A DNA stretch of 64,000 nucleotides from Segetibacter koreensis DSM 18137 (lineage in GTDB: Bacteria; Bacteroidota; Bacteroidia; Chitinophagales; Chitinophagaceae), in NCBI RefSeq assembly GCF_000374045.1, contig NZ_KB893314.1, positions 62,001 through 126,000 of the forward strand. The letters are read 5' to 3'. Below the pieces are notes generated by a model. That model saw nothing but the letters and a program-made list of their open reading frames with translations. It did not search any database and had not been told where the DNA came from. The translations under genes and the position numbers were made by a program. The number at the start of each line of letters is the position of its first letter. Positions within the stretch are counted from its first letter, which is position 1. This document shows, piece after piece, positions 2,076-52,426 of this stretch.

Positions 2076-2432
2076 AATCTAACCCAATTTTTCTAATTAC
2101 GATGCAGAAATTCAATTTAAACAGCTTCGTGATTGTTATTTGGGAGCGCAAAGGTAAGAGCAAACATTATATCATCCAACATTTTTAAAAAAGAATTTCA
2201 ATTAAAATCAAAAAATATTTTTAAAACGCAGTTTTTATAGGTTCCATTATTTTTTTCTGTACTAAATAACGACAAATTCAAAAAAGGAGCGATCTTTTAC
2301 AGATTGGGCAGGAAATAAAAAAGCTTGCCTACTTTAAATAAGTTCACTACTGCAATTACCGCTTTAAAAAACGCCTCTACCCTTTTGGTTTATTACCTAA
2401 CGTCTTTTTACAATGAGGCAGTTAGCAGTACT
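2076..2432. other. Intergenic region between fcl and rpsJ
   Basis: These 357 bases hold the rpsJ promoter at 2149-2180. The rest is A/T-rich, and I see no convincing gene in it. No strong terminator for the fcl transcript was found, so read-through into rpsJ cannot be excluded. Confidence 0.6.
2149..2180 (-). promoter_or_regulatory. Bacteroidota-type promoter of rpsJ
   Basis: On the minus strand the -7 element TACCTTTG (2149-2156) matches TAnnTTTG fully. A GTTG at 2177-2180, 20 bp upstream, stands in for the -33 TTTG. The same -7 octamer is used at rpsL. The start codon lies about 73 nt downstream. It would make the S10 operon independent of fusA. Confidence 0.65.
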
Positions 2433-3365
2433 CTAACTCCAATTGTACTCTTTCACCTCTTCATACACCATTTTTATACCATCCGCCAGGGAGATGGAAG
2501 CTTTCCATCCTAAAGAATTAAGTTTTGAGACATCCATCAATTTTCGTGGTGTTCCGTCAGGTTTCGTTATATCCTGCTTTACTTCACCCTTGTAACCTAC
2601 AATGTCTTTTATCATCAATGCAAGCTCTCTTATTGTTATATCTTCCCCGGTTCCTATATTGATAAAGCCTGGTTGATTATAATTTTCCATCACGTAATAA
2701 CATGCTTCTGCAAGATCATCTGCATGTAAAAACTCCCTTCGTGGAGAACCTGAACCCCAAATTTCCACAAAGGGCGCATTTGATTGTTTTGCAACTACCA
2801 TTTTTCGTATCAACGCCGGCAATACATGACTGTTATTAAGGTCGTAGTTATCATTAGGACCATATAAATTGGTAGGCATTACCGAAATAAAATTACATCC
2901 ATACTGTGCGCGGTATGCCTCACACAATTTTATGCCGGTGATTTTTGCGATAGCGTATGGTTCGTTTGTTTCCTCCAAAGCCCCTGTAAGAAGATATTCT
3001 TCTTTCAAAGGCTGAGGAGCTAATTTGGGATAAATACAGGAGGACCCCAGAAACATAAGTTTATTTACACGGTATTTATAAGCAGCATGTATCACATTTG
3101 TTTCAATCATGAGGTTATCATAAATGAAGTCTGCCCTGTAAACATTATTTGCATGAATACCGCCTACTTTTGCCGCTGCTAAAAAAACATATTCAGGTTT
3201 TTCCTGGTCAAAAAATTCATTAACTGCATGTTGGTTGCGAAGGTCTAACTCCGCTGACGTCATGGTTATGAGGTTTTCAAAGCCTTCCGCTTGCAGTTTT
3301 CTCATAATAGCACTTCCTACCATTCCCCTGTGACCTGCCACATATACCCGCGACTGTTTCTCCAT
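2433..3365 (-). CDS. fcl: GDP-L-fucose synthase
   Basis: This 310-residue short-chain dehydrogenase makes GDP-L-fucose from GDP-4-keto-6-deoxymannose by 3,5-epimerisation and NADPH reduction. Seen: the nucleotide-binding [10 protein letters not shown] near the N-terminus, SSCIYP with the catalytic Ser, and the YAIAK Tyr/Lys pair. The length fits the family. It lies 67 nt after gmd, which makes its substrate, and is the last gene of the locus. GDP-fucose would feed the GT11 fucosyltransferase at 41781-42620. Confidence 0.95.
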
Positions 3366-3432
3366 TTACTTGTTCTTTTAAAAATTACCCATCGCTTTTT
3401 ACTATTAAAGCCGGTTTACCTAATGCCCTCTC

Positions 3433-4542
3433 CTATTCAAACTGGTTTTTAATCTTAAAACCGCTTTGCTTTAGTAAAACTTCACTTTTAAATAATTCAA
3501 TATCGGCTGCTACCATCTCATCTATAAGTTGTTCAAGATTACAGGATGGTACCCAACCTAATTTTTCTTTTGCTTTTGTTGCATCACCTATCAGTAAATC
3601 AACCTCTGTTGGCCTGTAATACCTTGGATCTACTTTTACGACTGTCGTTCCTATTGGAATAACATATTCACCCTTACAAGCCGTCACAATTGCAGTCTCT
3701 CCTTCATTGGAATCTTTAAACTTAAGTTCTATTCCTATATTCTCAAATGCTATTCTCACAAAATCACGAATGGAAGTAGTAGTTCCTGTAGCCAACACGT
3801 AATCGTCTGGTTTCTCCTGCTGTAAAATCCGCCACATACCTTCCACATAGTCTTTTGCATGTCCCCAATCTCTCATTGAGTTTAAGTTTCCAAGGTATAA
3901 AACATCCTGCAGGCCCAGTGCTATTTTTGCAACTGCTCTTGTTATTTTACGTGTTACAAAAGTTTCTCCTCTTAAGGGAGATTCGTGATTGAATAAAATA
4001 CCGTTGCAGGCAAACATGTCGTATGCTTCACGATAATTGACTGTTATCCAGTAGGCATATAACTTGGCAACTGCATATGGCGAGCGGGGATAAAACGGAG
4101 TAGTTTCATTTTGGGGAACTGCCTGTACCAATCCATATAATTCTGATGTAGAAGCCTGGTAAACTCTTGTTTTTTCTATAAGACCTAACAACCTTATAGC
4201 TTCCAGTATACGCAACGTACCTAAACCATCCGCATTTGCTGTATATTCAGGTTCCTCAAAACTAACCTGAACATGACTCATTGCCGCGAGGTTATAAATT
4301 TCATCAGGCTGCACTTCCTGTATTATTCTAATCAGGTTGGTTGAGTCTGTAAGATCTCCATAATGCAGAATCAGGTTTCGTTGAGAAACATGAGGATCCT
4401 GGTATAAATGATCAATTCGATCGGTATTAAATAACGAAGTTCTGCGCTTTATACCATGCACTATATAACCCTTATTTAAAAGAAGTTCCGTAAGATACGC
4501 CCCGTCCTGACCGGTTATTCCGGTAATTAAAGCCACTTTCAT
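3433..4542 (-). CDS. gmd: GDP-mannose 4,6-dehydratase
   Basis: This 369-residue enzyme converts GDP-mannose to GDP-4-keto-6-deoxymannose. Seen: the Rossmann motif [10 protein letters not shown] at the start, HYGDLTD, the YAVAK catalytic pair in [14 protein letters not shown], and [17 protein letters not shown], a hallmark of Gmd. Length and motifs are normal. It forms a pair with fcl. A terminator at 4705-4738 separates the pair from the uxs/ugd genes, so it may have its own promoter, though none is obvious. Confidence 0.96.
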
Positions 4543-4704
4543 ACTATAATCGGATATTTATATTTAGATCACCATTTACAAAATAAATGTTTACACGCCT
4601 TTTTTAATAAACAATATTACTTGATATTCTATTTTGAAAGACAGGTTTTTTGAAAATTAGCCTATCTTTTTATTGCTCGGCATTATTATAAGTTAAGTAA
4701 ATGG

Positions 4705-4738
4705 ATATAATAATAAAAGGGGGCTGTTAACCCCCTTT
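4705..4738 (-). terminator. Rho-independent terminator after the UDP-xylose synthase gene
   Basis: A perfect 8-bp stem (AAAGGGGG / CCCCCTTT, 4716-4723 with 4731-4738, 7-nt loop) is followed on the minus strand by TTATTATTATA. It lies about 75 nt after the stop at 4811 and would end the uxs transcript before gmd. Confidence 0.75.
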
Positions 4739-4810
4739 ATACCATGTTCAACTATCAACGTTTGTAAAAAACTGAAAGAATTGTAATCTTATTCCAAAAG
4801 ATTTTCTGTG

Positions 4811-5788
4811 TTATTTACTCATAAATTCTTTAGGCTGTTTATACAGTTCTTCCTGGGGCAGAGATTTAAAGTAATCGTACGTGATTTTCAATCCTTCAGA
4901 TCTTGACACTTTTGGCTCCCACCCAAGCAGCTCTTTTGCCCTTGTAATATCAGGACGTCTTTGCTTAGGGTCATCTACCGGTAAAGGTCTGTACTTGATT
5001 TTGACGTCAGAATTTGTCAGCTTTAATACCTCTTCAGCAAACTCTTTAAGTGATATCTCATCAGGGTTTCCGATGTTAACCGGACTTGCATAATCACTAA
5101 ATAATAGCCGGTAAATTCCTTCGATCAGGTCGTCTACATAACAGAAAGACCTTGTTTGTGAACCATCACCAAATACTGTAAGGTCTTCGCCTCTTAATGC
5201 CTGGCCGATAAAAGCAGGCAATGCTCGTCCGTCATTTAACCGCATTCTCGGTCCATACGAATTAAATATGCGAATGATTCTTGTTTCTACATTATGAAAT
5301 GTGTGGTAAGCCATGGTAATAGCTTCCTGGAAACGTTTCGCTTCATCGTATACACCTCTTGGACCTACCGGGTTTACATTTCCCCAGTAGTCTTCATTTT
5401 GCGGGTGTACATTAGGATCACCATATACCTCGCTCGTAGAAGCAACCAGTATTCTTGCTTTCTTATCTTTTGCAAGACCGAGGCAATTATGAGTTCCTAA
5501 TGAACCTACCTTTAATGTTTGAATAGGTATTTTCAGATAATCTATCGGACTTGCCGGGGAAGCAAAATGCAATATATAATCCAAATTCCCTGGAACATGA
5601 ATGAATTTTGATACATCGTGATGATAAAATTCAAAATCCTTAAGATGAAAAAGATGTTCAATATTTTTAAGGTCACCCGTAATAAGGTTGTCCATTGCCA
5701 TTACAGAAAAACCTTCTTTTATAAACCTGTCGCACAGGTGAGAGCCCAGGAAGCCTGCTGCACCTGTTATTAATATCCTTTTTTTCAT
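4811..5788 (-). CDS. uxs: UDP-glucuronate decarboxylase (UDP-xylose synthase)
   Basis: This 325-residue SDR enzyme would decarboxylate UDP-glucuronate to UDP-xylose. Seen: [14 protein letters not shown] for NAD binding, [11 protein letters not shown] and STSEVYGDP, the YDEAKR catalytic Tyr/Lys, and [10 protein letters not shown], all typical of the UXS clade rather than of general epimerases. It starts 6 nt after the UDP-glucose dehydrogenase stop, so the two form a two-step unit UDP-Glc to UDP-GlcA to UDP-Xyl. A terminator follows. Confidence 0.9.
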
Positions 5789-5794
5789 ATATTT

Positions 5795-7150
5795 TTAAGC
5801 TTCACTCGGTTGTAATTGACTGGTTTTTACATTGGGTTGTAAGCCTATTCCATAATATGAAAAACCTGCTTCAACAACTTCAGAAGGGCTGTAGATGTTT
5901 CTACCATCAAATACCACATCACCTTTCATTATGTTTTTAACCTTTTTCCAATCCGGCAAACGGAATTCTGACCATTCAGTTACCAATACAAGCGCATCGG
6001 CTCCTTTTACCGCATCTATTGCGCCGCGGGTAAAAATAACCTGGTCGTCTACCATATGGGCTGCTTCTTCCATTGCAACAGGATCGTATGCGTGAACCTT
6101 TGCTCCTGCATCTAACAGAGACTGTATAAGTACTAAAGCCGGTGCTTCGCGCATATCATCTGTGTTTGGTTTGAAAGACAAACCCCATAATGCAAATACT
6201 TTCCCGGTCAAATCTCCATCAAAATGATTTTGTATTTTTTTGAATATTACGTGTTTCTGATCATCGTTTACAGCATCTACGGCTTTCAGAATTCGTAAAT
6301 CGTAACCATATTCATCAGAAGTATGAAAAAGTGCCTTTACATCTTTTGGAAAGCATGAACCACCATATCCAATACCCGGATAAATGAAACGGTTGCCAAT
6401 GCGTGGGTCAGAACCTATACCTTTCCTTACTTCATTTACATTCGCACCAACCAGTTCGCATAAGTTGGCGATATCATTCATAAAAGATATTTTGGTTGCC
6501 AGCATTGCATTAGCTGCATATTTTGTCATTTCCGCAGACGGAATATCCATAAATAATACAGGATGCGAGTTTAAAAGAAACGGATGGTACAACCTTCCTA
6601 ATACTTCTTTTGCACGCTCAGACTCAACGCCTATAACTATTCTGTCCGGCTTAAGAAAATCTTCTACTGCGGCACCTTCTTTTAAAAACTCCGGATTGGA
6701 AGCAACATCAAAATCAATATTAACTGATCTCTTGGCCAATGCTGATGCAATGCCTGCCTTCACTTTTTTTGCAGTACCTACAGGCACTGTACTTTTTGTT
6801 ACTACTATGATATATTCTTCAATACAACTGCCAATGGTATCTGCTACCTGCAATACATATTTTAAATCTGCGCTTCCATCTTCTCCGGGAGGAGTACCTA
6901 CAGCTATAAAAGCAACCTGCGCATCCTTTATTGATTCTGATAAACTTGTACTGAATTGTAAGCGACCCTTGCTGTAATTGCTTGTAACAATCGCTTCAAG
7001 TCCTGGTTCAAAAATTGGAAGAATTCCTTTTTTTAGATTTTCAATCTTTTGCTTGTGTACGTCTACACATACGACTTCTACACCAACTTCTGCAAGACAT
7101 GCACCTGTTACGAGTCCGACGTAACCTGTACCAACGATGACAATTTTCAT
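5795..7150 (-). CDS. ugd: UDP-glucose 6-dehydrogenase
   Basis: This 451-residue enzyme oxidises UDP-glucose to UDP-glucuronate with two NAD+. Seen: the N-terminal GTGYVGLVTGACLAEVG Rossmann motif, NPEFLKEGAAVEDF, and the active-site Cys in GYGGSCFPKDVKAL. The C-terminal UDP-binding domain has GLSFKPNTDDMREAP. Full length for the family. It directly precedes uxs. It is distinct from the second sugar-nucleotide dehydrogenase at 12359-13654, which has the TviB-type motifs. Confidence 0.95.
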   Translation of the reverse strand: MKIVIVGTGYVGLVTGACLAEVGVEVVCVDVHKQKIENLKKGILPIFEPGLEAIVTSNYSKGRLQFSTSLSESIKDAQVAFIAVGTPPGEDGSADLKYVLQVADTIGSCIEEYIIVVTKSTVPVGTAKKVKAGIASALAKRSVNIDFDVASNPEFLKEGAAVEDFLKPDRIVIGVESERAKEVLGRLYHPFLLNSHPVLFMDIPSAEMTKYAANAMLATKISFMNDIANLCELVGANVNEVRKGIGSDPRIGNRFIYPGIGYGGSCFPKDVKALFHTSDEYGYDLRILKAVDAVNDDQKHVIFKKIQNHFDGDLTGKVFALWGLSFKPNTDDMREAPALVLIQSLLDAGAKVHAYDPVAMEEAAHMVDDQVIFTRGAIDAVKGADALVLVTEWSEFRLPDWKKVKNIMKGDVVFDGRNIYSPSEVVEAGFSYYGIGLQPNVKTSQLQPSEA

Positions 7151-7300
7151 AAAAATAAATATTAATTGATTTTAGATTAGCGCTTTTTTACTAATATGTT
7201 TAAGAAAAAAATTATTTCAATATGGCTAAACAATTAGTAGAGATGCTGTACTTAATGTAAGTATTTATAACGATAAATTTAAGGTATTAGTATTTTATCA

Positions 7301-8158
7301 TTATTTAATGCGACTGAGATATTCTCCGTAACCGCTCTTTTTATATCTTTCGGCCTGCTTATGTAACCCTTCGCTGCTTAAAAAGCCCATCCGGTAAGAC
7401 ACTTCTTCAATACAACCAATTTTTTGGCCCTGTCTTTTCTCTATAACCCTTACAAACTCAGAAGCATCACTAAGTGAGTCAAATGTACCCGTGTCTAACC
7501 AGGCTGTTCCCCTGTCCATTACCCCTACTTTTAACTTTCCCTGCTCAAGGTATATCCTGTTTATATCAGTTATTTCATATTCTCCCCTTGCTGATGGTTT
7601 TATTTTCTTTGCTAATTCCACTACAGAATTATCATAAAAATATAAACCCGGAACCGCGAACTTCGACTTAGGGTTTGCGGGTTTTTCTTCTATGCTTACT
7701 GCATTAAACTGAGAGTCAAACTCTACTACCCCATATCTCTCAGGGTCTGCTACTTCGTATGCGAAAACAGCAGCACCGTCTACGTTATAAAAAGATTGCA
7801 GCAGCTTACTCAATCCACTTCCATAGAAAATATTGTCTCCCAATATCAATGCTACTCTATCGTCCCCTATAAATTCCTCTCCTATTACGAAAGCCTGGGC
7901 GAGGCCATTGGGCACCTCCTGCACAGCGTATGTAAAATGAACTCCTATGTCTTTTCCGTCGCCGAGCAGCCTTTGAAACTGGGTACTGTCTTCAGGTGTC
8001 GTAATAATTAATATTTCCTTAATACCTGCAAGCATTAAAACAGATATTGGATAATAGATCATCGGCTTATCATAAATGGGCATTAACTGCTTGCTTATGG
8101 CTTTTGTAATCGGGTACAGTCTTGTTCCCGAACCTCCTGCTAATATTATTCCTTTCAT
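7301..8158 (-). CDS. rfbA: Glucose-1-phosphate thymidylyltransferase
   Basis: This 285-residue nucleotidyltransferase would make dTDP-glucose from glucose-1-phosphate and dTTP. Seen: the signature [38 protein letters not shown] with the metal-binding Asp, and TGTFDSL. It lies after rfbC and rfbB in the same direction, so the dTDP-sugar genes are together; spacers of about 130-150 nt flank it. No dTDP-4-keto-rhamnose reductase (rfbD) is present in the window. Confidence 0.95.
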
Positions 8159-8290
8159 TTTTTATAAAAAGATCTCTGTTTTAATAAAGAATATTGTTGC
8201 AGTTATAGCTAAATAGGTCTTTTTTGATTCAAAATATTTTTATGCCCGTTTAACACAAACTATACCAGAAATATTTTCAATACTTTTATC

Positions 8291-8842
8291 TCAAAAAAGT
8301 GTTGCATAAGAGCTTAACAGCGGTAAACTTATATCCTTAGATGAAATAATAAGATCATTTGGTTGCATGAGCCAATTAATATTAATTTCAGGATCATTAT
8401 AAATGATACCGCCTTCAGCTTCTTTGTTGTAGAAGTTATCACATTTATAAAAAAAATCTACTACATCACTTAGCACAAGAAAACCATGTCCAAATCCCCT
8501 GGGAATATAAAGCTGTGTATGTGAAGTTTCTGATAAAACCACAGCATAATGTTGGCCAAATGTAGGCGATGACCTTCTTAAGTCAACTGCGACATCTAAC
8601 ACCTCTCCTTTCAAAACCCTCACGAGTTTAGCTTGGGCAAATTCTCCTTTTTGAAAATGAATACCGCGTAAAACCCCTCTTACCGAGTGGGATTGGTTGT
8701 CCTGCACAAAAGGGGTATTGGCACCTGTTTCTCTATAAAATTTCTGTGCGTTGAAACTTTCAAAGAAATGACCTCTCTCATCGTAGTGAATGCTGTCATG
8801 TATTAAAAAACAATCTTTTAATGGTGTTTTCTCTGCTCGCAT
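8291..8842 (-). CDS. rfbC: dTDP-4-dehydrorhamnose 3,5-epimerase
   Basis: This 183-residue cupin-fold protein matches RmlC in length and motifs: SHSVRGVLRGIHFQ with the catalytic His region, GEVLDVAVDLRRSSPTFG, and YIPRGFGHGFLVLSD, then a Tyr-containing YKCDNFY segment. It epimerises dTDP-4-keto-6-deoxyglucose. It starts 3 nt after the rfbB stop. Related 3,4-ketoisomerases are also cupins, but the RGIHFQ and GFGHGF pattern favours RmlC. Confidence 0.92.
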   Translation of the reverse strand: MRAEKTPLKDCFLIHDSIHYDERGHFFESFNAQKFYRETGANTPFVQDNQSHSVRGVLRGIHFQKGEFAQAKLVRVLKGEVLDVAVDLRRSSPTFGQHYAVVLSETSHTQLYIPRGFGHGFLVLSDVVDFFYKCDNFYNKEAEGGIIYNDPEININWLMQPNDLIISSKDISLPLLSSYATLF

Positions 8843-8845
8843 ATT

Positions 8846-9898
8846 TTAGCTGTTATCGTACATTTTGTTATAGTAATCTTTATAAGAACCGGAGGTAACG
8901 TGGTTCAGCCATTCCTGGTTGTTTAAATACCAGTCAATAGTTTCGCTCAATCCCTGTTCAAACGTGACAGATGGCTTCCATCCAAGTTCCCTGTTTATTT
9001 TGGTTGCATCTATTGCATATCTCCTGTCGTGACCGGGACGGTCCTTTACAAAAGTTATTAATGCTTCGCTTGTACCAGGCTGGTTACCAAGTTTCTCATC
9101 CATCAGTTTACAAAGCAATTTTACCAGGTCAATATTCTTCCACTCATTAAAACCTCCGATATTAAATGTTTCACCAACTTTTTTTGCATGAAAAATAGTA
9201 TCAATGGCTGTAGCATGATCCTTCACATACAACCAGTCGCGTGTGTAAAGGCCATCACCATAAACAGGTAATGCTTTTTTGGAAATGATGTTATTTATTA
9301 AAAGAGGTATCAGCTTTTCGGGAAAATGATTAGGACCGTAATTGTTAGAACAATTTGAAATGACAAATGGTAACTCGTATGTTTCGCCATACGCTCTTAC
9401 AAAGTGGTCAGAAGAAGCTTTACTGGCAGAATAAGGTGAATTGGGATGGTAAGGCGTGGTTTCGGTAAAAAAACCTGTACTGCCCAACGCTCCATATACT
9501 TCGTCGGTAGAAATATGATAAAACAATTTATCACTAAAATCATCCGCCCAGTTTTTCTTAGCTGCGTTTAAAAGATTGACCGTGCCGAGTACATTGGTAA
9601 ATACAAAATCAAGTGGAGAGTGAATAGACCGGTCAACATGAGATTCTGCTGCCAGGTGAATTACGTCTGTAACCTGGTATTGCTTGAAGACCCTTTCAAC
9701 TTCCGGCACATCAAGTATATTTACTTTTTCAAAAGTGTAATTAGGCATACTGTCAATATCCGCCAGGTTTTCAAGGTTGCCTGCGTAGGTTAATGCATCC
9801 AGGTTGATAATTTTATATTGGGGATACTTTGTTACAAACAGTCTTACAACATGCGATCCTATAAAACCCGCTCCTCCGGTTATTACTATATTTTTCAT
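8846..9898 (-). CDS. rfbB: dTDP-glucose 4,6-dehydratase
   Basis: This 350-residue SDR enzyme would convert dTDP-glucose to dTDP-4-keto-6-deoxyglucose. Seen: GGAGFIGSHVVRLF, HLAAESHVDRSI, the STDEVYGALG segment with the catalytic Asp-Glu, and the YSASKA catalytic pair, followed by NCSNNYGP. Full length. It heads a run rfbB-rfbC-rfbA. A hairpin with a T-run lies upstream (9985-10025) and a weak -7 element at 9932-9939, so the run may be a separate transcript. Confidence 0.95.
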   Translation of the reverse strand: MKNIVITGGAGFIGSHVVRLFVTKYPQYKIINLDALTYAGNLENLADIDSMPNYTFEKVNILDVPEVERVFKQYQVTDVIHLAAESHVDRSIHSPLDFVFTNVLGTVNLLNAAKKNWADDFSDKLFYHISTDEVYGALGSTGFFTETTPYHPNSPYSASKASSDHFVRAYGETYELPFVISNCSNNYGPNHFPEKLIPLLINNIISKKALPVYGDGLYTRDWLYVKDHATAIDTIFHAKKVGETFNIGGFNEWKNIDLVKLLCKLMDEKLGNQPGTSEALITFVKDRPGHDRRYAIDATKINRELGWKPSVTFEQGLSETIDWYLNNQEWLNHVTSGSYKDYYNKMYDNS

Positions 9899-9931
9899 GT
9901 ATACTTAAAAGAAATATTTAACTTAATGGCG

Positions 9932-9939
9932 CGAAAATA
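9932..9939 (-). promoter_or_regulatory. Possible -7 element upstream of rfbB
   Basis: The minus strand reads TATTTTCG, one mismatch to TAnnTTTG, about 35 nt upstream of the rfbB start and just downstream of a terminator. No good -33 TTTG was found, so this is tentative. Confidence 0.3.
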
Positions 9940-9984
9940 GAATGATCCCACCCGATTTCATAAAAAAGTTTACGAGTGGTATAA

Positions 9985-10025
9985 CAATTAAAAAAACAAT
10001 GTGTTTCTTTTATAAGAAGAAACAC
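9985..10025 (-). terminator. Terminator-like hairpin after the GT4 gene at 10128-11309
   Basis: GTGTTTCTT pairs with AAGAAACAC (10001-10025, with extra unpaired bases on one side) and is followed on the minus strand by ATTGTTTTTTTAATTG. It lies about 100 nt after the stop at 10128 and before rfbB. Confidence 0.6.
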
Positions 10026-10127
10026 GGGAAAATGAAAGGGTGATTACAGCAGAACTAAATCATTGAGAACGCTTCGTTTGTAATTTATGCAACAGTGTTA
10101 GGTAAAGCGCTTCCCTTTTATCTCTGT

Positions 10128-11309: not shown

Positions 11310-11367
11310 TTCGGACTTATTCTAATAATTCTTACAAAATCATTTATAAGAGTAATTCTTTTTACGG

Positions 11368-11375
11368 CAAAAGTA
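11368..11375 (-). promoter_or_regulatory. Possible -7 element upstream of the GT4 gene
   Basis: The minus strand has TACTTTTG, a full match to TAnnTTTG, about 58 nt before the start at 11309. No TTTG is at the expected -33 distance, so confidence is moderate. Confidence 0.42.
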
Positions 11376-12346: not shown

Positions 12347-12358
12347 TGTTTCTTCTCG

Positions 12359-42620: not shown

Positions 42621-42752
42621 TTATTTATTTTTCCAGGCCCTGTTTTTTGCATTAAAAAGGAACCTGACTTTTATCTGCTTTTAGAATGAATGATTTTCAA
42701 ATATTTTCTTCAGTTACCGCTTTTTCGCCGACAAATATTTCTTTGTAATTTT

Positions 42753-44051: not shown

Positions 44052-44112
44052 TCTTATTTACTACGTTCGCTTTTTTGTGATTTTCTAATTCTCATTCTGT
44101 CCTTCTTTATTC

Positions 44113-44160
44113 GTCATCCTGACTTTCTTATTCGTTATCCTGAACTAGTTTCAGTATCAA
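44113..44160. repeat. Degenerate REP-like hairpin repeat between wzm and wzt
   Basis: GTCATCCTGA at 44113-44122 and GTTATCCTGAACTAG, then TTTCAGTATC (44134-44158), match the unit at 46284-46310 with several changes. A further partial copy may lie near 44222-44245. Confidence 0.55.
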
Positions 44161-44263
44161 CCATCCGTTGTTATAAATGTTGAAATAAATTCCGGATGAC
44201 GGATAAGGTGGTCAAACGTGAGATGCGGAAACAAATTCAGTGGTCGTTTCCGGTTCAACTGTT

Positions 44264-45139
44264 TTATACCGTATCTACAAAATTCTTTTCAACCTTATTA
44301 AATATAATAATTCCTACAATCATTAATACAAATGTTACCCCGCAGGAGTATCCTAAAGACACCCATGAGAAACTTCCTCTTCCCAAAAATCCATACCGGA
44401 ACGTTTCAATTAACGCCGTCATGGGATTTAATACCAGCAGCCATTTGTATTTGGCAGGGGCAGCAGACAGCGGATAAATAACAGTAGTAGCATACATTAG
44501 CAACTGGATACCAAATGTGATCAGAAAAGCAAGATCCCGGTATTTGGTGGTCATGGCAGAGATAATCATTCCCGCACCTAAACCTAGTGTCGCCATTAAT
44601 ATTACCACTATTGGAAACAAAGCTATTGCCCAAGTGGGGTGAAATGGAGTACCCTTAACCCCATAATATAACATCACCACAAGAAATAAAAGAAATTGAA
44701 CTCCGAAACGTACGAGGTTACTTACTACAATACTTAAAGGCATTATAAGCCGGGGAAAGTAAACCTTGCCGAATATATTGGCGTTGTCTTTAAAAACAGT
44801 GGATGTTTTTGTAAGGCAATCCGCAAAATAATTCCATGCTGTAATACCAGCCATATAAAAAAGTGCCGGTGGAAGACCGTCGGTAGAAATACCGGCGAGC
44901 CTGCCAAAAACAAATGTAAACATGATGGTGGTAAGAAGCGGCTGAATAAAGAACCATAAAGGACCGAGAATGGTCTGTTTATAAAACGAAACAAAATCGC
45001 GTCTTACCAATAACCACAACAGGTCACGATACTGCCAGACGTCTTTTAGCTTAAGATCAAAAATGTTGTTATATGGTTCAATTACCATATCCCATTGCTC
45101 GTCTTCGGGGTACTTTTTTACTTGCTGTTTAATTACCAT
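44264..45139 (-). CDS. Polysaccharide ABC exporter permease (Wzm-like)
   Basis: This 291-residue ABC-2 type permease has six hydrophobic segments. Seen: VWQYRDLLWLLVRRDFVSFYKQ, PLWFFIQPLLTTIMFTFVFG, FYMAGITAWNYFADCL and YPLSAAPAKYKWLLVLNPMT, all typical of O-antigen/teichoic-acid exporters. It overlaps the GT4 gene by 11 nt. It is the only such permease in the window and the presumed partner of both Wzt proteins. Confidence 0.94.
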   Translation of the reverse strand: MVIKQQVKKYPEDEQWDMVIEPYNNIFDLKLKDVWQYRDLLWLLVRRDFVSFYKQTILGPLWFFIQPLLTTIMFTFVFGRLAGISTDGLPPALFYMAGITAWNYFADCLTKTSTVFKDNANIFGKVYFPRLIMPLSIVVSNLVRFGVQFLLFLVVMLYYGVKGTPFHPTWAIALFPIVVILMATLGLGAGMIISAMTTKYRDLAFLITFGIQLLMYATTVIYPLSAAPAKYKWLLVLNPMTALIETFRYGFLGRGSFSWVSLGYSCGVTFVLMIVGIIIFNKVEKNFVDTV

Positions 45140-46265
45140 TATTGAATGCTAGTACTTTTTTTAAATTTTGTTTATACGTCTCAAATCCAAAAGCCTGAAG
45201 GACTCTTTGCTGAAGTTCTTTTTTGGCTCGCCCGTTAATAACGTCGTTTCTTCCAGCCAAACACTTTTCAAGGGCCTGTAATATGGCTGTTTCGTCCCCC
45301 GGATCAACCAACTGGCCTAATTCCCCCTGTTGCAATGCGTCTACGCTGCCATCTTTGTTGCCTGCTATAACCGGCAATCCGCAAGCCATCGCCTCTATAA
45401 ATACAATACCAAAACCTTCTTTTCGACTCGGCATTATAAAAACATCGGCCAACAGAAAATGATCGACAATTTCTTTTTCTTCTATAAATCCCGTCAACAG
45501 TAGATTTTGATGCAATTGATTCTCCTCTTTCAAAGCTTCTAACCGTTGTTTTTCAACTGTATCGTACTTGCCGGATAAGATATATTTCACTTCCGGAAAA
45601 TGCTGTTTTAGCCGGGGTATTACTTTCATTATCAAATCATACCCTTTATGTTTTTCAGAATGAGACAGCCTGGTTAAAGTAAATATAACAGGTTCATTTG
45701 GTTGTATCCCGTACCGCTCCACCAGGTACAGAGGCTTTTCGAACACTGCGGGATAAGCAAAGTACGGATCGATGGTATTGGAAAAAATACAAATTTTATC
45801 AGGGTGTATTCCATGAACGTCTACTATTTTTTGCTTTGTAAAAGTGCTTACCGCCAGTATTGTATCCGCCTTTTGCAGTAAACTCTTCTGCACCGTGCTC
45901 AACTTTCCCCAGACCTCAATTCCATGTGCAACCAATATAATCCTTTTTGTAGGAAAAAGCTTTTTTGCTATCCATGCAATTGAGCTTAAATGAATGTGGG
46001 ATAGTACAACAGTATCATACTTATATACATTTAATAATACGTACAGCGCAAAGCGAAATCGCTGCCCATTAAATCCTTTATAATTATCCGGCTGAAAAAA
46101 TTTCGTGTCTGCTTTACTGTCAAAAGCGGAACATGCATCTGCTGTTAACAAGCCTTCCCCTGCAAGGTCTGACAGCGCTTTTAAAAAAGCCCGGCTAAAT
46201 TTTTCAATTCCCCCTGTTAAAGAAAACGCCGTTAGGTTTAAGAATAAGATTTTTTTTACAGGCAT
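45129..46265 (-). CDS. Glycosyltransferase family 4
   Basis: From the ATG at 46265 this has about 378 residues and begins MPVKKILFLNLTAFSLTGGIEK; an ATG four codons upstream at 46277 is possible. The GGIEKFSRAF segment is the GT4 acceptor loop. The C-terminal domain has TLTRLSHSEKHKGYDLIMKV and the E-x7-E motif in RKEGFGIVFIEAMACGLPVIA. It directly precedes the export permease. Sugar unknown. Confidence 0.93.
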   Translation of the reverse strand: MPVKKILFLNLTAFSLTGGIEKFSRAFLKALSDLAGEGLLTADACSAFDSKADTKFFQPDNYKGFNGQRFRFALYVLLNVYKYDTVVLSHIHLSSIAWIAKKLFPTKRIILVAHGIEVWGKLSTVQKSLLQKADTILAVSTFTKQKIVDVHGIHPDKICIFSNTIDPYFAYPAVFEKPLYLVERYGIQPNEPVIFTLTRLSHSEKHKGYDLIMKVIPRLKQHFPEVKYILSGKYDTVEKQRLEALKEENQLHQNLLLTGFIEEKEIVDHFLLADVFIMPSRKEGFGIVFIEAMACGLPVIAGNKDGSVDALQQGELGQLVDPGDETAILQALEKCLAGRNDVINGRAKKELQQRVLQAFGFETYKQNLKKVLAFNNGN

Positions 46266-46283
46266 GTATAAGGGCATTTTACA

Positions 46284-46310
46284 GTCATCCTGAAACTAGT
46301 TCAGGATGAC
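46284..46310. repeat. REP-like hairpin repeat upstream of the GT4 gene
   Basis: A perfect 11-bp inverted repeat GTCATCCTGAA / TTCAGGATGAC with a 5-nt loop (ACTAG). Relatives occur at 44113-44160 and 36713-36757. It lies between the Wzc-like kinase gene and the next gene on the minus strand. Confidence 0.85.
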
Positions 46311-46370
46311 TTGTGTCAAACCGGTTCCGGAAGACGTGGCGAAAGGGAAGTCCGGTTCTGCTGAAACTGC

Positions 46371-48752
46371 TTATGTAAAAAATTGAAACAGCCTCTTTAA
46401 CAATGGTTCTTTTTCATTTTCACCATATGAATAATTATACGACATGCTGTTACCATATCCGTAGCTATTACCATAACCGTAATAAGAATTTATACCGGTT
46501 AACTTAACATCGTTGACCAACAAAGACATATTGGGAAATGCTTTTTTCGCATATAAATCATCAATAAAATTGAGCTGCTTTTTAGGCGTATAGCGTTGTC
46601 GTACTATAAAAAGCACTACATCAGCGTAGCGACTTAAAATCTTAGCATCACTTACGAGGCCGAGAGGGGCGGAATCAATAATTATGATATCGAAATTCGC
46701 TTTAAGATAAGAAAATAACTCGCCTATTTTCTCATCCAGCATCAGTTCAGACGGGTTGGGAGGAATAGGTCCTGCCGGAACTACATACAAGTTGCTGGTA
46801 TTTTTAACAGCAACCGGTAAGTCTTCTTTTCGGGCATCGCCAATGATATAATTGCTGATCCCTTTTCTATCAAGCAGATCCAAAGCTTTGGAGATCTTCG
46901 GTTTACGAAGGTCCAGCTCAAGTATAACAGTTTTTTTATTGGTTAAAGCCCATACCGCTCCCAGGTTCATAGAAGTAAACGTTTTCCCTTCCCCGGCTAT
47001 CGAAGAAGTAATAAGAATGACAGGGCTTTTCTTATCTGTAATAAAGAATTGCAGGTTTGTCCGTGCCACTCTGAATTGCTCGGCAATAACACTTCTGTCT
47101 TTTTCACCTACAACCAGTTTCCTGTCCCTGATCTTAAGATGGCCGATTTCTCCCGCTACAGGTATTTCTGTCGCCCTTGTAATGTCTGCTTTGTCGGTTA
47201 CTTTATCATTTAATAACTCAAGCAGGTAAATAAAACCAGCCGGTATCAGAAGACCTGCAATAAGAGCTAACCGGTATGTTCCGCTGCGATCAGGGCTTAC
47301 GGGACTGCCGGAGTACGTAGCTGGATCAATAGAAGATGCATTAGAAATACTTGAGGCGACTGTAATAGCTGACTCTTCGCGCTTTTGCAATAAAAACAGG
47401 TATAGCTTTTCCTTTATACCTTGCTGGCGTTCGATTTCAAGCAATTCTCTTTCTTTTGACGGAACTTGCCTTATCCGGCTTCTCAGATTATTATATTCTG
47501 CCAGGAGATTATTTCGTAAAGACTGCGCGGCCCTATTTATATTAGAAAGGTTCTCAAGTAAACTTACCCTTACCTTTTCTATCTGGTTATCCATTACCTG
47601 TATTACCGGGTTAGCTTCGGGCATTGTTTTTAACTTTTCTTCCCTCTCAAGCTGTAACTGGTTGTAATTAGTAACCAAGGCGAGTAATGTAGGATCTTCT
47701 ATACCAAGCGAAGAAGGAACAAGGCTGTATTTTTTACCGGGACTGCTGATATATTGCTGCAGCATCTCAATCACTTGCAATCTTATTTCCTGCTCTCCCA
47801 GTTTTTCATTGGTACTTTTTAATTCGTCAGACTGCAGTTCACCCTGTTTCTGTATATCGATGATCTCATTTTTCTGGCGAAATTCCTGGAGGCCCTGTTC
47901 CACTTTACCTAATTCTGATGTCAGCAATATCAATCTGCCATCAATGAATTTTACCGTATTTTCAATTACCTTGTTCTTGTTTTCAATAATAGTATTATTG
48001 TAAGCTTTAACTAGTTCATTTAAAATATCAACTCCTTTTTGTTGAATTTCTGTAACTACATTAATGCTTAAAATAGTAGCATCCCTGTTTAATTGGCGAA
48101 TGCTTAAACCAGAAGCGATTGCCCCTGCCGCCTGGAAAGGAGGAAGCCACTGAATAATGTATTTATATTCAGGATTAACTCCCTGCTTACTGATATTTGT
48201 TATTCTGAAATCCCCCTGGTGGCCATGCACAATATCTCCCTGCCGGTACCATTGACCGGCCAACCCCTGCACCTGGAAATGTCCTTTTTTATTAAAATTA
48301 AGTACAAGCGTGTACCCCGAATTAGTGTCTTTTTGAGAGATCGATTCATAACTAAAAGGCAGGCTTCCATAGACTTCACTTCTCTTTACATTACCCTCAA
48401 CCCAATATTGCGTATTTAAATGGATAGCTTTTACAACTTTCGTCATCAGGCTCGCCGATCTTAAAATTTCTATTTCATTGGCAAGGTTTGTTTTGGGCTT
48501 AAACAACACAATTTCATTTAACGCATCAGAGGGCTGCGAATTTCTGTCATCTTTTATAAGAACAGACACAGAGGAATTGTAGTAAGGCACCTGGTACCGT
48601 AAGTATAAATAAGCTATAGTAACTGATATAGCCAGCGATATTATGAATAACGGCAGATAGACGAGGTACTTAAAAAGGAACTCTTTTGGAGTAATTTTAT
48701 GTTTGTCTTTGTGTATTTGCAAACCAGAGAGGGAGTTTTCGGCGATGTGCAA
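46371..48752 (-). CDS. Polysaccharide co-polymerase with tyrosine autokinase (Wzc-like)
   Basis: This 793-residue inner-membrane protein has a Wzz-type domain between membrane segments near residues 31-50 and 494-512, with a long coiled-coil periplasmic part (about 240-460). The cytoplasmic BY-kinase has Walker A SSIAGEGKT (583-591), Walker A' VILELD (609-614) and Walker B IIIIDSAP (689-696). A Tyr-rich tail (residues 757-776, eight Tyr) is the usual autophosphorylation cluster. It controls chain length and export with the Wza-like protein, whose gene ends 5 nt before its start. Confidence 0.96.
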   Translation of the reverse strand: MHIAENSLSGLQIHKDKHKITPKEFLFKYLVYLPLFIISLAISVTIAYLYLRYQVPYYNSSVSVLIKDDRNSQPSDALNEIVLFKPKTNLANEIEILRSASLMTKVVKAIHLNTQYWVEGNVKRSEVYGSLPFSYESISQKDTNSGYTLVLNFNKKGHFQVQGLAGQWYRQGDIVHGHQGDFRITNISKQGVNPEYKYIIQWLPPFQAAGAIASGLSIRQLNRDATILSINVVTEIQQKGVDILNELVKAYNNTIIENKNKVIENTVKFIDGRLILLTSELGKVEQGLQEFRQKNEIIDIQKQGELQSDELKSTNEKLGEQEIRLQVIEMLQQYISSPGKKYSLVPSSLGIEDPTLLALVTNYNQLQLEREEKLKTMPEANPVIQVMDNQIEKVRVSLLENLSNINRAAQSLRNNLLAEYNNLRSRIRQVPSKERELLEIERQQGIKEKLYLFLLQKREESAITVASSISNASSIDPATYSGSPVSPDRSGTYRLALIAGLLIPAGFIYLLELLNDKVTDKADITRATEIPVAGEIGHLKIRDRKLVVGEKDRSVIAEQFRVARTNLQFFITDKKSPVILITSSIAGEGKTFTSMNLGAVWALTNKKTVILELDLRKPKISKALDLLDRKGISNYIIGDARKEDLPVAVKNTSNLYVVPAGPIPPNPSELMLDEKIGELFSYLKANFDIIIIDSAPLGLVSDAKILSRYADVVLFIVRQRYTPKKQLNFIDDLYAKKAFPNMSLLVNDVKLTGINSYYGYGNSYGYGNSMSYNYSYGENEKEPLLKRLFQFFT

Positions 48753-48757
48753 TCTGC

Positions 48758-49606
48758 TTATTTTCTAAAATTAACTATTAAAATCAGTATCGTACTAACA
48801 ACGGAAATTCCTGCGGTTATAAGAGAAATATTACTTCTTAGTATGGAAGAAGACTGGTCAGTTGCCGCGACTTTCTCTTTTGTAAGTTCAACATACACCA
48901 CATCATTTTGCTTTAAAACAAAATAAGGTGAACTAAATACATTTTTAGAAAGCATATTTACACGACCAAATTCTCTTTCCCCGTTTTTTTCGCGGATCAC
49001 AAGTATATTATCGCGTCGCGCAGTAATGGGAAGATCTCCTGCTAAACCTATTGCTTCTACCAGCGTCACTTTCCCATCAGGAATACTTAAGGTTCCGGGC
49101 TTTGCAACTTCTCCTAATACGGTAATTTTAAAGTTTAAAAATTGAACCGTTACAATAGGGTCAGTCAAATATCTTATAAGTTTTTGGGACAGTGTATCGA
49201 CGAGTTGCTTTCTTAGCATTCCCGCAACGCGAATTTTGCCAAGCTGAGGAAAATGGATTGTGCCATCAGATTCTACAATGTAACCGTTATTGCCTGTGCC
49301 GGAAGAGGTCGAACCCAGAGAGGAAGATGACCCTGACATTGTACCTGCAGATGAAATAGTGGCTGACGAACCTAAATTATAAGGTGCAGCAGAGGCCGGA
49401 TCCAATGCATTTACGATTATGCTTAGCCGGTCCCCAGGCTGGATGAGAGGCTCATAATTCTGAATCGATTTGGCCAGTGTGGTATCGCCCTGCTCATTAA
49501 AATACACCAGTGAACTTAATTTTTTTTGAGGGTTGCAAGCCAGAAGAAAAATGGTACTATAAAAAAAGAATATTAAACAAATACATACCAGATTTCTGCT
49601 TCTCAT
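48758..49606 (-). CDS. Polysaccharide export outer-membrane lipoprotein (Wza-like, OPX)
   Basis: The start at 49606 (MRSRNLVCICLIFFFYS) gives a lipoprotein signal with lipobox LLAC, Cys24; an ATG 16 codons upstream would put extra residues before it. The body has LIQPGDRLSIIVNAL, the Poly_export motif, a Ser/Gly-rich linker, then ITVLGEVAKPGTLSIPDGKVT of an SLBB domain. A C-terminal hydrophobic stretch (ISLITAGISVVSTILILIV) may be a membrane segment. It forms the channel for the polymer with the kinase encoded next. Confidence 0.94.
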   Translation of the reverse strand: MRSRNLVCICLIFFFYSTIFLLACNPQKKLSSLVYFNEQGDTTLAKSIQNYEPLIQPGDRLSIIVNALDPASAAPYNLGSSATISSAGTMSGSSSSLGSTSSGTGNNGYIVESDGTIHFPQLGKIRVAGMLRKQLVDTLSQKLIRYLTDPIVTVQFLNFKITVLGEVAKPGTLSIPDGKVTLVEAIGLAGDLPITARRDNILVIREKNGEREFGRVNMLSKNVFSSPYFVLKQNDVVYVELTKEKVAATDQSSSILRSNISLITAGISVVSTILILIVNFRK

Positions 49607-49977
49607 AATTGGATTTATCGTACGACTGCTTACGGCTTCGCCTCCCTCAGTCACATTAAAACGTCTGAGTCTTTAAGTTATTGCAATAAATTTAAACACG
49701 GTCTTTATATCCCGTGTCTTTTACAAACCATTTTAATAAAGGAATAACTTTCATATTTGCAGGAAAGTCATTGTACATATTAAAGAGTGGGTTTCAGTCA
49801 AAGTAAAGCAAAACAGACCTTACATTGCAAATATTTTAGCGGTAAATTTATAGGAATAAAGAGTAATTGAACAAAAAATTTAGTAGGCGGCGGTTCATTT
49901 TTACAACCTTTTGACTTTATTACTGCATCCTTTTTCATGAGCGTTTGTACTGCAAAAAGCATGAAGTCCGAACATTA
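49607..49977. other. Spacer between WecA-like and Wza-like genes
   Basis: These 371 bases hold the hairpin at 49696-49717 and A/T-rich sequence. No coding gene is convincing. The spacer is far longer than the others in the front part of the locus, so a promoter for the export genes is likely, but no good TTTG / TAnnTTTG pair was found. Confidence 0.5.
49696..49717 (-). promoter_or_regulatory. Hairpin in the leader upstream of the export lipoprotein gene
   Basis: ACACGG pairs with CCGTGT (10-nt loop), followed on the minus strand by TTAAATTTATT. It lies 90 nt before the start at 49606 and 261 nt after the WecA-like stop. It could end the upstream transcript or act as an attenuator; this is inference. 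Confidence 0.4.
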
Positions 49978-51090
49978 TCAATTCGTTCGTCGGGATGGCA
50001 ACTGTTCCTCTTCCGACTTTAAATTGATTTTATTCTCATTTTTTACAACTCTCATCGGAACTTTTACTGGTAGTCTTTTTATGCTAAAAATAATAACAAA
50101 AAAACAGGAAATAAGACCTGCAATCAGCCATGTGGTGCCAGCACTTTGTAATAAAAATGCCGCTACAATAAACAATATACTTATCGCCGAACAAGTAAAT
50201 GTTATGTTCCTATGAGTAAATCCCCTGTCAAGGAGCAAATGATGAATGTGATTTCTGTCTGCAGTAAAGGGTGACAATCCGTGGAAGATCCGAATTCCAA
50301 AAACGCGTAAAGTATCCATTAGCGGCAGTAGCAGCACTGAAAAACCTATAGCAGGTACCGCAGTCACGGAAAATAAATGGTAATTAGTACCGCTTTGAAT
50401 AAATTTGATCACCAATATACTGTTTACCACCCCCATTAACAGCGATCCTGTATCACCCATAAAAATTTTGGCCGGCTGAAAATTGTATATTAAAAAAGCA
50501 ACAAGACTTCCGGCAAAACCGAAACCTAACAAGGCGTAAGGTATATTACCGTTTACGAGAAAAAATGTTCCGAATACAAGGGAGCTTATTAAACCAAGAC
50601 TTCCGGCAAGACCATCTACACCATCAATAAGATTAAAGGCATTAATTATAACAATAATTGTAAAAAAGGTAAGAAAAACACTAAAAGAAAAATAAATGTG
50701 TGTTATTCCTAAAAAGCCGGCCATATTGGTTATAAGAAGGTGAGCTTTAAACATAAGGACACATGCTACTAAAGCCTGGCCGATAAATTTTTTAATTGCA
50801 GATATTTCTACAAGGTCGTCTTTGATACCCACAAAAAAGATCAATATAAAACAGGCGACGTAATATTGAAATTCATAAAGCTGAAAGAAATTGCCCATCA
50901 ATAAAATAGAAATAATAAACCCAAGAAAAATACCTAAACCTCCTAAAGACGATATAGGTTGCTTATGAAGTTTTCTTACAGAGTCAGGATTATCAAACAA
51001 GTTTTTCTTCTCTGAAACATATATAATTCTTGGAATGGCAAATAAAGTAGTAAGAAAAGCGAGAATACTTACAAATAAAATTTGTTCCAT
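49978..51090 (-). CDS. Undecaprenyl-phosphate sugar-1-phosphate transferase (WecA/MraY family)
   Basis: This 370-residue protein has about ten membrane segments. It carries the family sites: SSLGGLGIFLGF, NLIDGVDGLAGSLG with the catalytic Asp pair, KIFMGDTGSLLMG and the His motif ADRNHIHHLLLDRGF. It would move a sugar-1-phosphate (often GlcNAc-1-P) to undecaprenyl phosphate, the first step of chain building. It is the first gene of the polysaccharide locus. Confidence 0.93.
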   Translation of the reverse strand: MEQILFVSILAFLTTLFAIPRIIYVSEKKNLFDNPDSVRKLHKQPISSLGGLGIFLGFIISILLMGNFFQLYEFQYYVACFILIFFVGIKDDLVEISAIKKFIGQALVACVLMFKAHLLITNMAGFLGITHIYFSFSVFLTFFTIIVIINAFNLIDGVDGLAGSLGLISSLVFGTFFLVNGNIPYALLGFGFAGSLVAFLIYNFQPAKIFMGDTGSLLMGVVNSILVIKFIQSGTNYHLFSVTAVPAIGFSVLLLPLMDTLRVFGIRIFHGLSPFTADRNHIHHLLLDRGFTHRNITFTCSAISILFIVAAFLLQSAGTTWLIAGLISCFFVIIFSIKRLPVKVPMRVVKNENKINLKSEEEQLPSRRTN

Positions 51091-51458
51091 TGGGACGGTT
51101 TATTAATGAAGTACGTTGTGGCTTTTCTAAGATAATTTTATAAGAAGACGCGAAATTAGAGCGCTTTAAAACTTATTCTTATAACGCATTTGAATAAAGG
51201 TTTATTTTAACTTTTAACCGGACAATATCAACTAAATCAATCAGATAACATAAACTCAGGAAAAAACATTCACAATAACGTTCCGTCACATATTTATTTC
51301 TTTTTTCAATCGGATTGTAGCAACTCCATAAAAAAGCATTAAAAAATTCAATAAAAAATTAACGATCCCGTTTAAATTATAACGGCATGCAAAGCTTACT
51401 TTGCAATTTCTATTCCATTGCCTGCCACTTTAATTAATTAATTTTTTAAAAAATACAG
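51091..51458. other. Divergent intergenic region upstream of the polysaccharide locus
   Basis: These 368 bases lie between the first gene of the locus (minus) and the DUF4184 gene (plus). They hold a short palindrome GCAAAG-CTTA-CTTTGC at 51389-51404, a hairpin CCGTT/AACGG at 51369-51386, and a weak -7 (TAATTTCG) at 51151-51158 on the minus strand. A promoter for the whole locus is expected here but not identified for sure. Confidence 0.5.
51371..51403 (+). promoter_or_regulatory. Possible promoter of the DUF4184 gene
   Basis: TTACTTTG (51396-51403) is one base off TAnnTTTG, with TTTA at 51371-51374 in the -33 position, 21 bp upstream. The -7 box forms one arm of the palindrome at 51389-51404; the other arm gives a similar box on the minus strand. 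Confidence 0.35.
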
Positions 51459-52154
51459 GTGCCCTTTACATTTTCACATCCCGCTGCGGTTTTACCCCTT
51501 TCTCTTATTCCTAAAAAATGGATTTCTGTTACGGGCCTTGTCATCGGCAGCATTACGCCTGATTTTGAATATTTTTTCAGGATGCAGCACGACAGCGTTT
51601 ACAGTCATACTTGGGCTGGCATTTTTTGGTTTGATCTGCCACTTGGGTTGCTACTTGTTTATCTGTTTAATTACCTTATTCGAAAGGAATTCATTGAAAA
51701 CCTGCCCGTTTTCTTAAACCGGAGATTTTCAAAATTCACGTCATTTACAAGAAATCTAAACAGCGGCAAGGAATTTCTGTTTCTGACAAGCTCCCTTGTT
51801 ATCGGTATCTTATCGCATCTTATCTGGGATAAGCTGACACATAAAACCGTTCACATAATTGACCAGCAGGAACATTATTCTGTTTTTTGGGAGGCTAATA
51901 GCCTGGTAGGAGCGGCGGTAATAGCGTTGTTAGTTCTAAACATGCCAAAGGGAAAGAATACACAAAAGAGTTACTATTTATTCTTTTGGTTGCCAGTTTT
52001 CGTAATCACCCTCGCTGCAATGTATTTTACCTATTTATCAACCTCGGACTTGCAGGAACTTGGAATAGCTGCTATTGTAGGTTTCTTTATAGGATCAATT
52101 GTTACCTGTATTTTTCAAAAAGTGAAGAATAAAAGGTTTATAAGAATAGCTTAA
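51459..52154 (+). CDS. DUF4184 family membrane protein
   Basis: This 231-residue protein starts with GTG at 51459 and begins PFTFSHPAAVLPL, the DUF4184 signature, followed by ITPDFEYFFRM and LSHLIWDKLTHKTVHII. These His/Asp residues resemble those of the YdjM-like membrane hydrolases. Four to six membrane segments are seen. The function is unknown. It is the only plus-strand gene between the locus and fusA and may be independent of both. Confidence 0.8.
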   Translation: MPFTFSHPAAVLPLSLIPKKWISVTGLVIGSITPDFEYFFRMQHDSVYSHTWAGIFWFDLPLGLLLVYLFNYLIRKEFIENLPVFLNRRFSKFTSFTRNLNSGKEFLFLTSSLVIGILSHLIWDKLTHKTVHIIDQQEHYSVFWEANSLVGAAVIALLVLNMPKGKNTQKSYYLFFWLPVFVITLAAMYFTYLSTSDLQELGIAAIVGFFIGSIVTCIFQKVKNKRFIRIA

Positions 52155-52357
52155 TAAATTTCGCCTCCTTTGCTCTTTGGGTTTTAAGCACTGCATTGGG
52201 AAGGATTTAGTATCCGGCTATATTACTTTCACTACTTTCTATTAAACGAAATATAATTTGATTGTTGGTAAATGGACTTTTACCATAATTTATTCTACTC
52301 GCTTATAAAAAAGTTATAGAGGAAAATTGCAGGTTGTTCCCAAAACATGGAGATACA

Positions 52358-52390
52358 TAAAAACAAAAACCCCGCTTTTAACAAGCGGGG
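52358..52390 (-). terminator. Rho-independent terminator of fusA
   Basis: CCCCGCTT (52370-52377) pairs with AAGCGGGG (52383-52390), an 8-bp G/C-rich stem with a 5-nt loop. On the minus strand it is followed by TTTTTGTTTTTATG. It lies 37 nt after the fusA stop, so fusA transcription ends here and does not run on toward rpsJ. Confidence 0.9.
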
Positions 52391-52426
52391 CTATCTTATT
52401 TAAAGATCCGGAAGGATTTCCAGATG

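Follow-up and report, generated by a model that had tools for sequence, protein, structure and literature searches.

The window analyzed here, a 64,000-nucleotide stretch of the Segetibacter koreensis DSM 18137 genome, carries two groups of ribosomal genes on the minus strand and in the usual order, with fusA and rpsJ 50,351 bp apart (interval 2076-52426). At one end lies the start of the S10 operon, namely rpsJ (S10, the first gene; 1770-2075; NCBIfam TIGR01049, 141.4 bits), rplC (864-1538) and rplD (224-862). At the other end lies the str group, composed of fusA (EF-G; 52427-54574; TIGR00484, 1063.8 bits with the cut-off at 659.4) together with rpsG (55039-55506) and rpsL (55625-56005), which match TIGR01029 and TIGR00981. 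All six names come from NCBIfam; rplW would extend beyond the window start. The interval contains 45 minus-strand polysaccharide genes (2433-51090) and a single plus-strand DUF4184 gene (51459-52154; PF13803, 8e-52), so that NCBIfam and Pfam bear out the earlier note's account of what separates fusA from rpsJ.

Both ribosomal groups appear to be delimited by transcription signals of their own. A terminator at 52358-52390 and an rpsJ promoter at 2149-2180 had been proposed before, and our scans recover both on the minus strand, the terminator 3′ of fusA at 52392-52368 and the promoter motif TTG-N20-TTACCTTTG at 2179-2149. The same motif precedes rpsL (56035-56065, minus strand). In addition, the 464-bp gap between rpsG and fusA holds a minus-strand terminator-like hairpin (54985-55016), which means that the str group itself is split. 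Our scan found no minus-strand terminator in the fcl-rpsJ stretch, leaving room for read-through, and transcription from the polysaccharide genes may thus run into the S10 operon.

At E≤1e-3, Pfam matches were obtained for 37 of the 45 polysaccharide-locus proteins, one of them (30818-31813) falling under its curated cut-off, and the other eight had no match. The locus, all of it on the minus strand, can be divided into three parts. The rpsJ-side sugar-nucleotide module (2433-9898) includes fcl (starts at 2433; above its NCBIfam cut-off) followed by genes named from Pfam matches: gmd (3433), an NAD-dependent epimerase (4811), ugd (5795), rmlA (7301), rmlC (8291) and rmlB (8846). The centre (10128-41796; Pfam, NCBIfam) is made up of glycosyltransferases, FkbM methyltransferases and acyl/acetyltransferases, together with a UDP-sugar dehydrogenase (starts at 12359) and the first of two Wzt-like ATPases (35354). 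The fusA-side export module (41781-51090; Pfam, NCBIfam) encodes GT11 (starts at 41781), Wzt with a Wzt_C domain (42753-44051; PF00005 and PF14524), the ABC permease Wzm (44264-45139; PF01061), a further glycosyltransferase (45129), Wzc-like (46371) and Wza-like (48758) proteins and a WecA-like initiating transferase (49978-51090; PF00953). The locus had been described as complete; rmlA, rmlB and rmlC are indeed present, but RmlD is the best match of no locus protein, making the term a loose one.

Surface-polysaccharide loci dependent on the Wzm/Wzt ABC transporter typically combine an initiating transferase, Wzm, Wzt with Wzt_C, many glycosyltransferases and sugar-nucleotide genes. The window locus shares this make-up, including many glycosyltransferase families in Pfam besides the initiating sugar-phosphate transferase. 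It differs in having Wza- and Wzc-like genes beside the ABC exporter, two Wzt-like ATPases and ribosomal operons as flanks. None of the Pfam-scanned locus proteins matched a Wzx or Wzy family, but one protein (17428-18828, minus strand) has 11 transmembrane-like segments by hydropathy and no Pfam or NCBIfam match. Judging from family names, this ABC-exporter-type locus probably makes a lipid-linked glycan. Its synthesis would be begun by the WecA-like enzyme, with GDP-fucose, UDP-glucuronate and dTDP-sugars as predicted building blocks, and export would proceed via Wzm/Wzt together with Wza/Wzc-type proteins.

Since the genome is a 73-contig draft, one might ask whether a polysaccharide contig was mis-assembled onto a ribosomal one. 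This is very unlikely, because the independently assembled congener G005 has matching genes in matching order at both junctions; moreover, the window is internal to a 559,288-bp contig, away from its ends. The fusA junction of G005 reads fusA-wecA-wza-wzc-GT-wzm-wzt and its rpsJ junction rpsJ-fcl-gmd-epimerase-ugd-rml. The two are on different contigs, so the locus in G005 may not be continuous. Between the two genomes the order from wecA to wzm plus a Wzt-like gene is conserved, and the ends of the locus are common to both while the centre is mostly different.

Within the genus, the polysaccharide locus was found at the fusA-rpsJ site in S. koreensis and G005. Two other members retain a locus fragment adjoining rpsJ, unrelated genes occupy the site in G003 (9.1 kb) and G004 (4.7 kb), and in the remaining members the interval could be read only in part. 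As genus history is weakly resolved by the fusA protein alone, we used a combined tree of rpoB, fusA and S10 DNA (G001 and G008 left out; G002 and G007 lacking S10, G006 lacking rpoB). G007, the sister of the window's species, has no locus beside rpsJ, and a single gain would therefore require a loss there. This distribution suggests that the locus was placed or assembled at the boundary in one Segetibacter sub-clade, retained in the window's species and G005, but fragmented in both G006 and S. aerophilus. Thus, of the insertion or rearrangement that had been proposed, one part stands: the locus came to this site during the evolution of the genus, as the unrelated genes of G003 and G004 indicate. 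The other part does not, as no conserved family joint was broken.

The latter point follows from the spacing of fusA and rpsJ in 110 Chitinophagaceae genomes, 64 of which have both genes on one contig; in the other 46 the genes are on separate contigs, some perhaps owing to assembly breaks. (Counts leave out second matches to fusA in G040 and G077, to rpsJ in G144 and to ilvE in G118.) A tight joint (≤94 bp) occurs in none of the 64, the minimum gap being 156 bp. Seven genomes have gaps of 156-207 bp and no gene between, gaps of 1.2-7.8 kb are found in 36 of the 56 same-contig, same-strand genomes, four genomes show full disconnection on the same strand (253-729 kb), and in eight the genes are on opposite strands at distances of 33.5 kb to 3.9 Mb. 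By contrast, the gap is ≤84 bp in 17 of 21 genomes from other families of the order and ≤94 bp in 10 of 10 from other orders of the class. These other class members share gene order and strand with the window and differ in their mostly tight gaps; the two examined in sequence have neither a terminator nor the promoter motif. The statement that elsewhere fusA is followed directly by rpsJ accordingly holds for most of the other class genomes sampled. Interval contents vary by lineage within the family: in the 52 interval loci read, different lineages hold different genes. The outcome named beforehand as refuting, the same split with the same locus throughout the family, was therefore found in one half only: the whole family has the split, but not the locus.

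The transcription signals, too, occur across the family. Of 75 family loci, 69 have the TTG-TANNTTTG promoter motif 5′ of rpsJ, regardless of interval content, where dinucleotide shuffles would give 1.95; a TAnnTTTG box is named in a figure legend of PMC5682007. For the terminator after fusA the count is 71 of 73 family loci. The negative control for the terminator scan was two joined outgroup genomes, both of which lack the terminator after fusA as well as the promoter motif 5′ of rpsJ. Even the seven genomes with gene-free 156-207-bp gaps have the terminator (7/7) and mostly the full promoter motif (6/7), and both signals are common to short-gap, filled-interval and fully separated genomes. 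Judged by these sequence matches, then, a terminator-like hairpin closes the str group behind fusA across the family, and a TTG/TANNTTTG promoter motif of its own precedes the S10 group. Instead of the conserved operon joint envisaged earlier, we find an old family-wide boundary.

These results bear directly on the idea that a mobile polysaccharide island recently inserted into an intact fusA-rpsJ operon joint and then forced the appearance of new transcription signals. The direct joining of the two genes in most genomes outside the family, and the lack of the locus at the site in G003 and G004, would fit such a scenario. Yet it is already contradicted by the family-wide split, with terminator and promoter accompanying quite different contents. 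Furthermore, the rpsJ promoter core TTACCTTTGCGCTCCCAA is invariant in all eight aligned genus members (the window and seven others), with no change between those with and without the locus. We also set aside a mobile-element origin, given that no tRNA was found in the window and that none of the 37 Pfam-matched polysaccharide proteins was identified as an integrase or a transposase (8 of the 45 having no match). Altogether, a recent insertion of this kind is very improbable. No part of the window reached the gathering score of an Rfam family, and among repeats of ≥22 nt no pair flanks both interval ends. A weak AT-rich repeat pair, D4 (76%), has one copy beside rpsJ (2182-2214) and the other at 23753-23785.

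A different possibility is that cargo enters this interval more frequently than it does other boundaries, which would make it a special hotspot of integration. On the fusA tree the interval state changes at least 20 times, and unrelated contents are many. The comparison with the other flank, based on 66 hand-picked genomes in which a single contig carries both ilvE and fusA (a span that includes rpsL and rpsG), is mixed. At tight cut-offs, chosen afterwards, the interval is more often filled (fusA-rpsJ ≤2 kb in 15/64 versus ilvE ≤3 kb from fusA in 27/66; Fisher p = 0.04), but at 25 kb the two flanks are alike (50/64 versus 50/66; p = 0.84), and the scanned interval proteins show no shared integrase or target. 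We consider a hotspot unlikely.

The reading we favor with considerable confidence is that an ABC-exporter-type surface-polysaccharide locus occupies an inter-operon boundary already present in the family. The earlier interpretation is thus partly supported and the observation behind it confirmed, but the separation of fusA from rpsJ is no recent disruption of a working operon; what looks like a breach of highly conserved bacterial gene order is an old, family-wide event. Independent transcription of both ribosomal groups would let genes enter or leave the space between them with ribosome synthesis unharmed.

The closest precedent is the str-S10 disconnection. According to Brandis 2021 (PMC8046335), the str and S10 operons, normally in series, have separated in Gammaproteobacteria and Bacilli, first by a few genes (bfd-bfr and ilv-leu genes, respectively) and in many species fully (>10 kb). 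The Chitinophagaceae and their outgroups show the same range of states: the operons are joined in outgroups (17/21 and 10/10, all ≤94 bp), small gene insertions occur within the clade (36/56 same-contig, same-strand genomes), and some members exceed 10 kb (four same-strand and eight opposite-strand). Compared with those cases, the differences are the host, Bacteroidota, the lineage-specific spacers and the presence of signals even at gene-free gaps. The literature listings searched contained no description of this fusA-rpsJ split in Bacteroidota; the present case comes from that phylum and has transcription signals throughout a family.

It is conceivable, and we offer this tentatively, that the signals came first: rpsG and fusA would have gained terminators behind them, and fusA and rpsJ TANNTTTG promoters in front, cutting the supercluster into units transcribed on their own, and only then could large cargo such as the 49-kb locus settle. 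If true, this would be the opposite of the order described in other phyla, where insertion came first. The family and its outgroups form a graded natural series (joined genes, 156-bp gaps, small inserts, a 50-kb insert, full separation), which could serve to test whether transcriptional uncoupling or gene insertion came first. In the family tree, which is built from fusA alone and has modest supports, equal-cost parsimony gives a "not short" gap at the family root (9 changes), though the ancestral gap may nevertheless have been short. Of the 52 interval loci read, 10 contain a gene for an S9 (DPP-IV type) peptidase. We do not claim it as the ancestral occupant, the same method reconstructing its absence at the root (6 changes). 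A further two genomes, G018 and G127, have the gene directly 3′ of fusA, and its carriers fall on either side of the deepest fork in the family's fusA tree.

In the window, rpsL-rpsG-fusA and rpsJ-rplC-rplD lie on the minus strand throughout and in the usual order, and 50,351 bp separate fusA from rpsJ. The contig (559 kb, the window occupying positions 62,001–126,000) belongs to a genome of 6.1 Mb in 73 contigs. The tight joint, with fusA directly adjoining rpsJ, was found in none of the 64 Chitinophagaceae genomes having both genes on one contig. We drew 117 family genomes and placed both genes in 110, seven being without one of them; the two genes shared contig and strand in 56, lay on opposite strands in eight and on different contigs in 46. 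Among the 56, the gap was 156–207 bp in seven, 299–580 bp in four, 1.2–7.8 kb in 36, 19.1–21.6 kb in three and 253–729 kb in four; the window, at 50.35 kb, stands by itself, and in one genome (G060) rpsJ is on the opposite side of fusA.

Outside the family, both genes could be placed in 21 of the 23 genomes searched from other families of the order, and the gap was −2 to 84 bp in 17 of them, the genes being on different contigs in three. The gap was 2.28 kb in the remaining one (G037, family f3, locus L148), a split outside the window's family that comes with a terminator and a promoter motif. This split is apparently independent of that in Chitinophagaceae, because G050, which the fusA tree places as the sister of this family, has the two genes joined. 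Our phylum sample of 60 genomes comprised ten from other orders of the class, four from the family (the window's own included), one from the order and 45 from other classes. The gap was at most 94 bp in all ten genomes from other orders, and often about 1.3 kb in the other classes, a size that would presumably fit a tuf gene.

The split is accompanied by separate predicted transcription signals. In the 200 bp before rpsJ, scanned in 75 family loci (75 genomes), TANNTTTG occurs in 73 and TTG-N16-22-TANNTTTG in 69, compared with 10.85 and 1.95 in dinucleotide shuffles; the box is usually near −38, and at −81 in the window. A strong hairpin with a T-run follows fusA in 71 of 73 family loci. The split outgroup G037 carries both the rpsJ promoter motif and this hairpin, and neither was found in the two joined outgroups tested (G050 and G043). 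Even the seven family genomes with the shortest gaps have the terminator (7/7) and, in six cases, the full promoter motif, the seventh (L112) having the TANNTTTG box alone, at −75. The core TTACCTTTGCGCTCCCAA before rpsJ is identical in all eight genus members aligned, despite their differing upstream contents. In the window, no minus-strand terminator was found from fcl to rpsJ, and transcription of the polysaccharide genes may therefore run on to some extent into the S10 operon. Since the ribosomal units carry their own signals, the site would tolerate insertions. Brandis 2021 (PMC8046335) reports that the str and S10 operons became disconnected in Gammaproteobacteria and Bacilli, at first by a small insertion and later in full; the window's split belongs to this kind, in another phylum, Bacteroidota.

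What stands in the gap varies by lineage. Among the 52 intervals read, many genes were found only once; an S9 peptidase recurs in ten and a beta-helix/PA14 protein in nine. The peptidase is of the DPP-IV type (L021:3100–5301 and nine other loci, cluster c0), lies just 3′ of fusA in two further genomes (G018 and G127), and occurs on either side of the deepest fork in the family. The interval state changed at least 20 times on the fusA tree (68 rows, 63 given a state). The gene ilvE, which lies upstream of rpsL in the window, served as a control flank: of the 66 genomes with ilvE and fusA on one contig, 50 have them within 25 kb of each other and on the same strand, and the corresponding figure for fusA-rpsJ is 50 of 64 (p = 0.84). 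For tight linkage, the figures are 27/66 (ilvE within 3 kb) versus 15/64 (fusA-rpsJ gap up to 2 kb), with p = 0.04 at cut-offs chosen afterwards.

In the window the interval is filled by 45 genes (2433–51090), all on the minus strand, 37 of them with a Pfam match at E ≤ 1e-3, and judging by these domains we read them as a surface-polysaccharide locus. The set includes a WecA-like starter, Wza-like and Wzc-like proteins, a Wzm/Wzt exporter, glycosyltransferases, methyl- and acyltransferases, and sugar-nucleotide genes for GDP-fucose and UDP-glucuronate together with rml genes, rmlD not being identified among the 45. The DUF4184 gene (51459–52154, plus strand) may travel with the export module at the fusA end, because its homologue in the congener G008 (L204:4634–5329, 48% identical) also adjoins Wza/Wzc genes. 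Two Wzt-like ATPase genes (35354–36619 and 42753–44051) are 72% identical over 300 nt, only the latter having a Wzt_C match. The Wzm and glycosyltransferase genes are flanked by a 24-nt inverted repeat pair (44134–44157/46287–46310, 92%), which may be a dispersed palindromic repeat.

The genus set comprised ten genomes, and a tree from rpoB, fusA and S10 DNA was built for eight, G002 and G007 having less than half of the columns. G004 branches first and the pair of G002 and G003 next, followed by a group at 100/100 that unites the window's genome (G000) plus G007 with G005 plus the pair of G006 and S. aerophilus (G009). The G004 interval (4.7 kb) holds a DUF5723 gene and an EF-G paralogue (L010:3436–5574) that is 33% identical to fusA; that of G003 (9.1 kb) holds a TonB-plug and a DUF4302 protein. 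G005 has both ends of the locus, on two contigs: wecA (74%), wzc (70%) and wzm (84%) at the fusA end, and fcl (83%), gmd (85%), epimerase (90%), ugd (91%) and rml genes (74–84%) at the rpsJ end. Beyond its rpsJ-side module lies a second polysaccharide cluster (L198:10898–14061) with its own Wza/Wzc, 36–40% identical. In both G006 and G009, epimerase and ugd (89–91%) are retained before rpsJ, and fusA lies on a different contig. The export module of G009 is some 300 kb away from rpsJ, with gmd-fcl-rmlC-rmlA on a different contig. In G007, the sister of the window's species, rpsJ is preceded by other genes and fusA stands at the end of a contig. Other genes also stand before rpsJ in G001 (no fusA match) and after fusA in G002 (no rpsJ match); G008 gave neither match. 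Two separate gains of the locus in the genus are possible; on the simplest reading, it would have arisen at this site in an ancestor shared by G000, G007, G005, G006 and G009, and later been lost or dispersed in three of them.

The str group itself is broken. In the window, rpsG and fusA are 464 bp apart (54575–55038), with a terminator-like hairpin between them (54985–55016), and in S. aerophilus a SusC/SusD pair (L210:4613–9627) separates the two genes. The last 100 bp before fusA contain TANNTTTG in 41 of 63 family genomes (mononucleotide-shuffle mean 2.9 over 67 loci, four of them repeating a genome), and in none of the six genus members tested. The nearest TANNTTTG box before fusA in the window is at −181.
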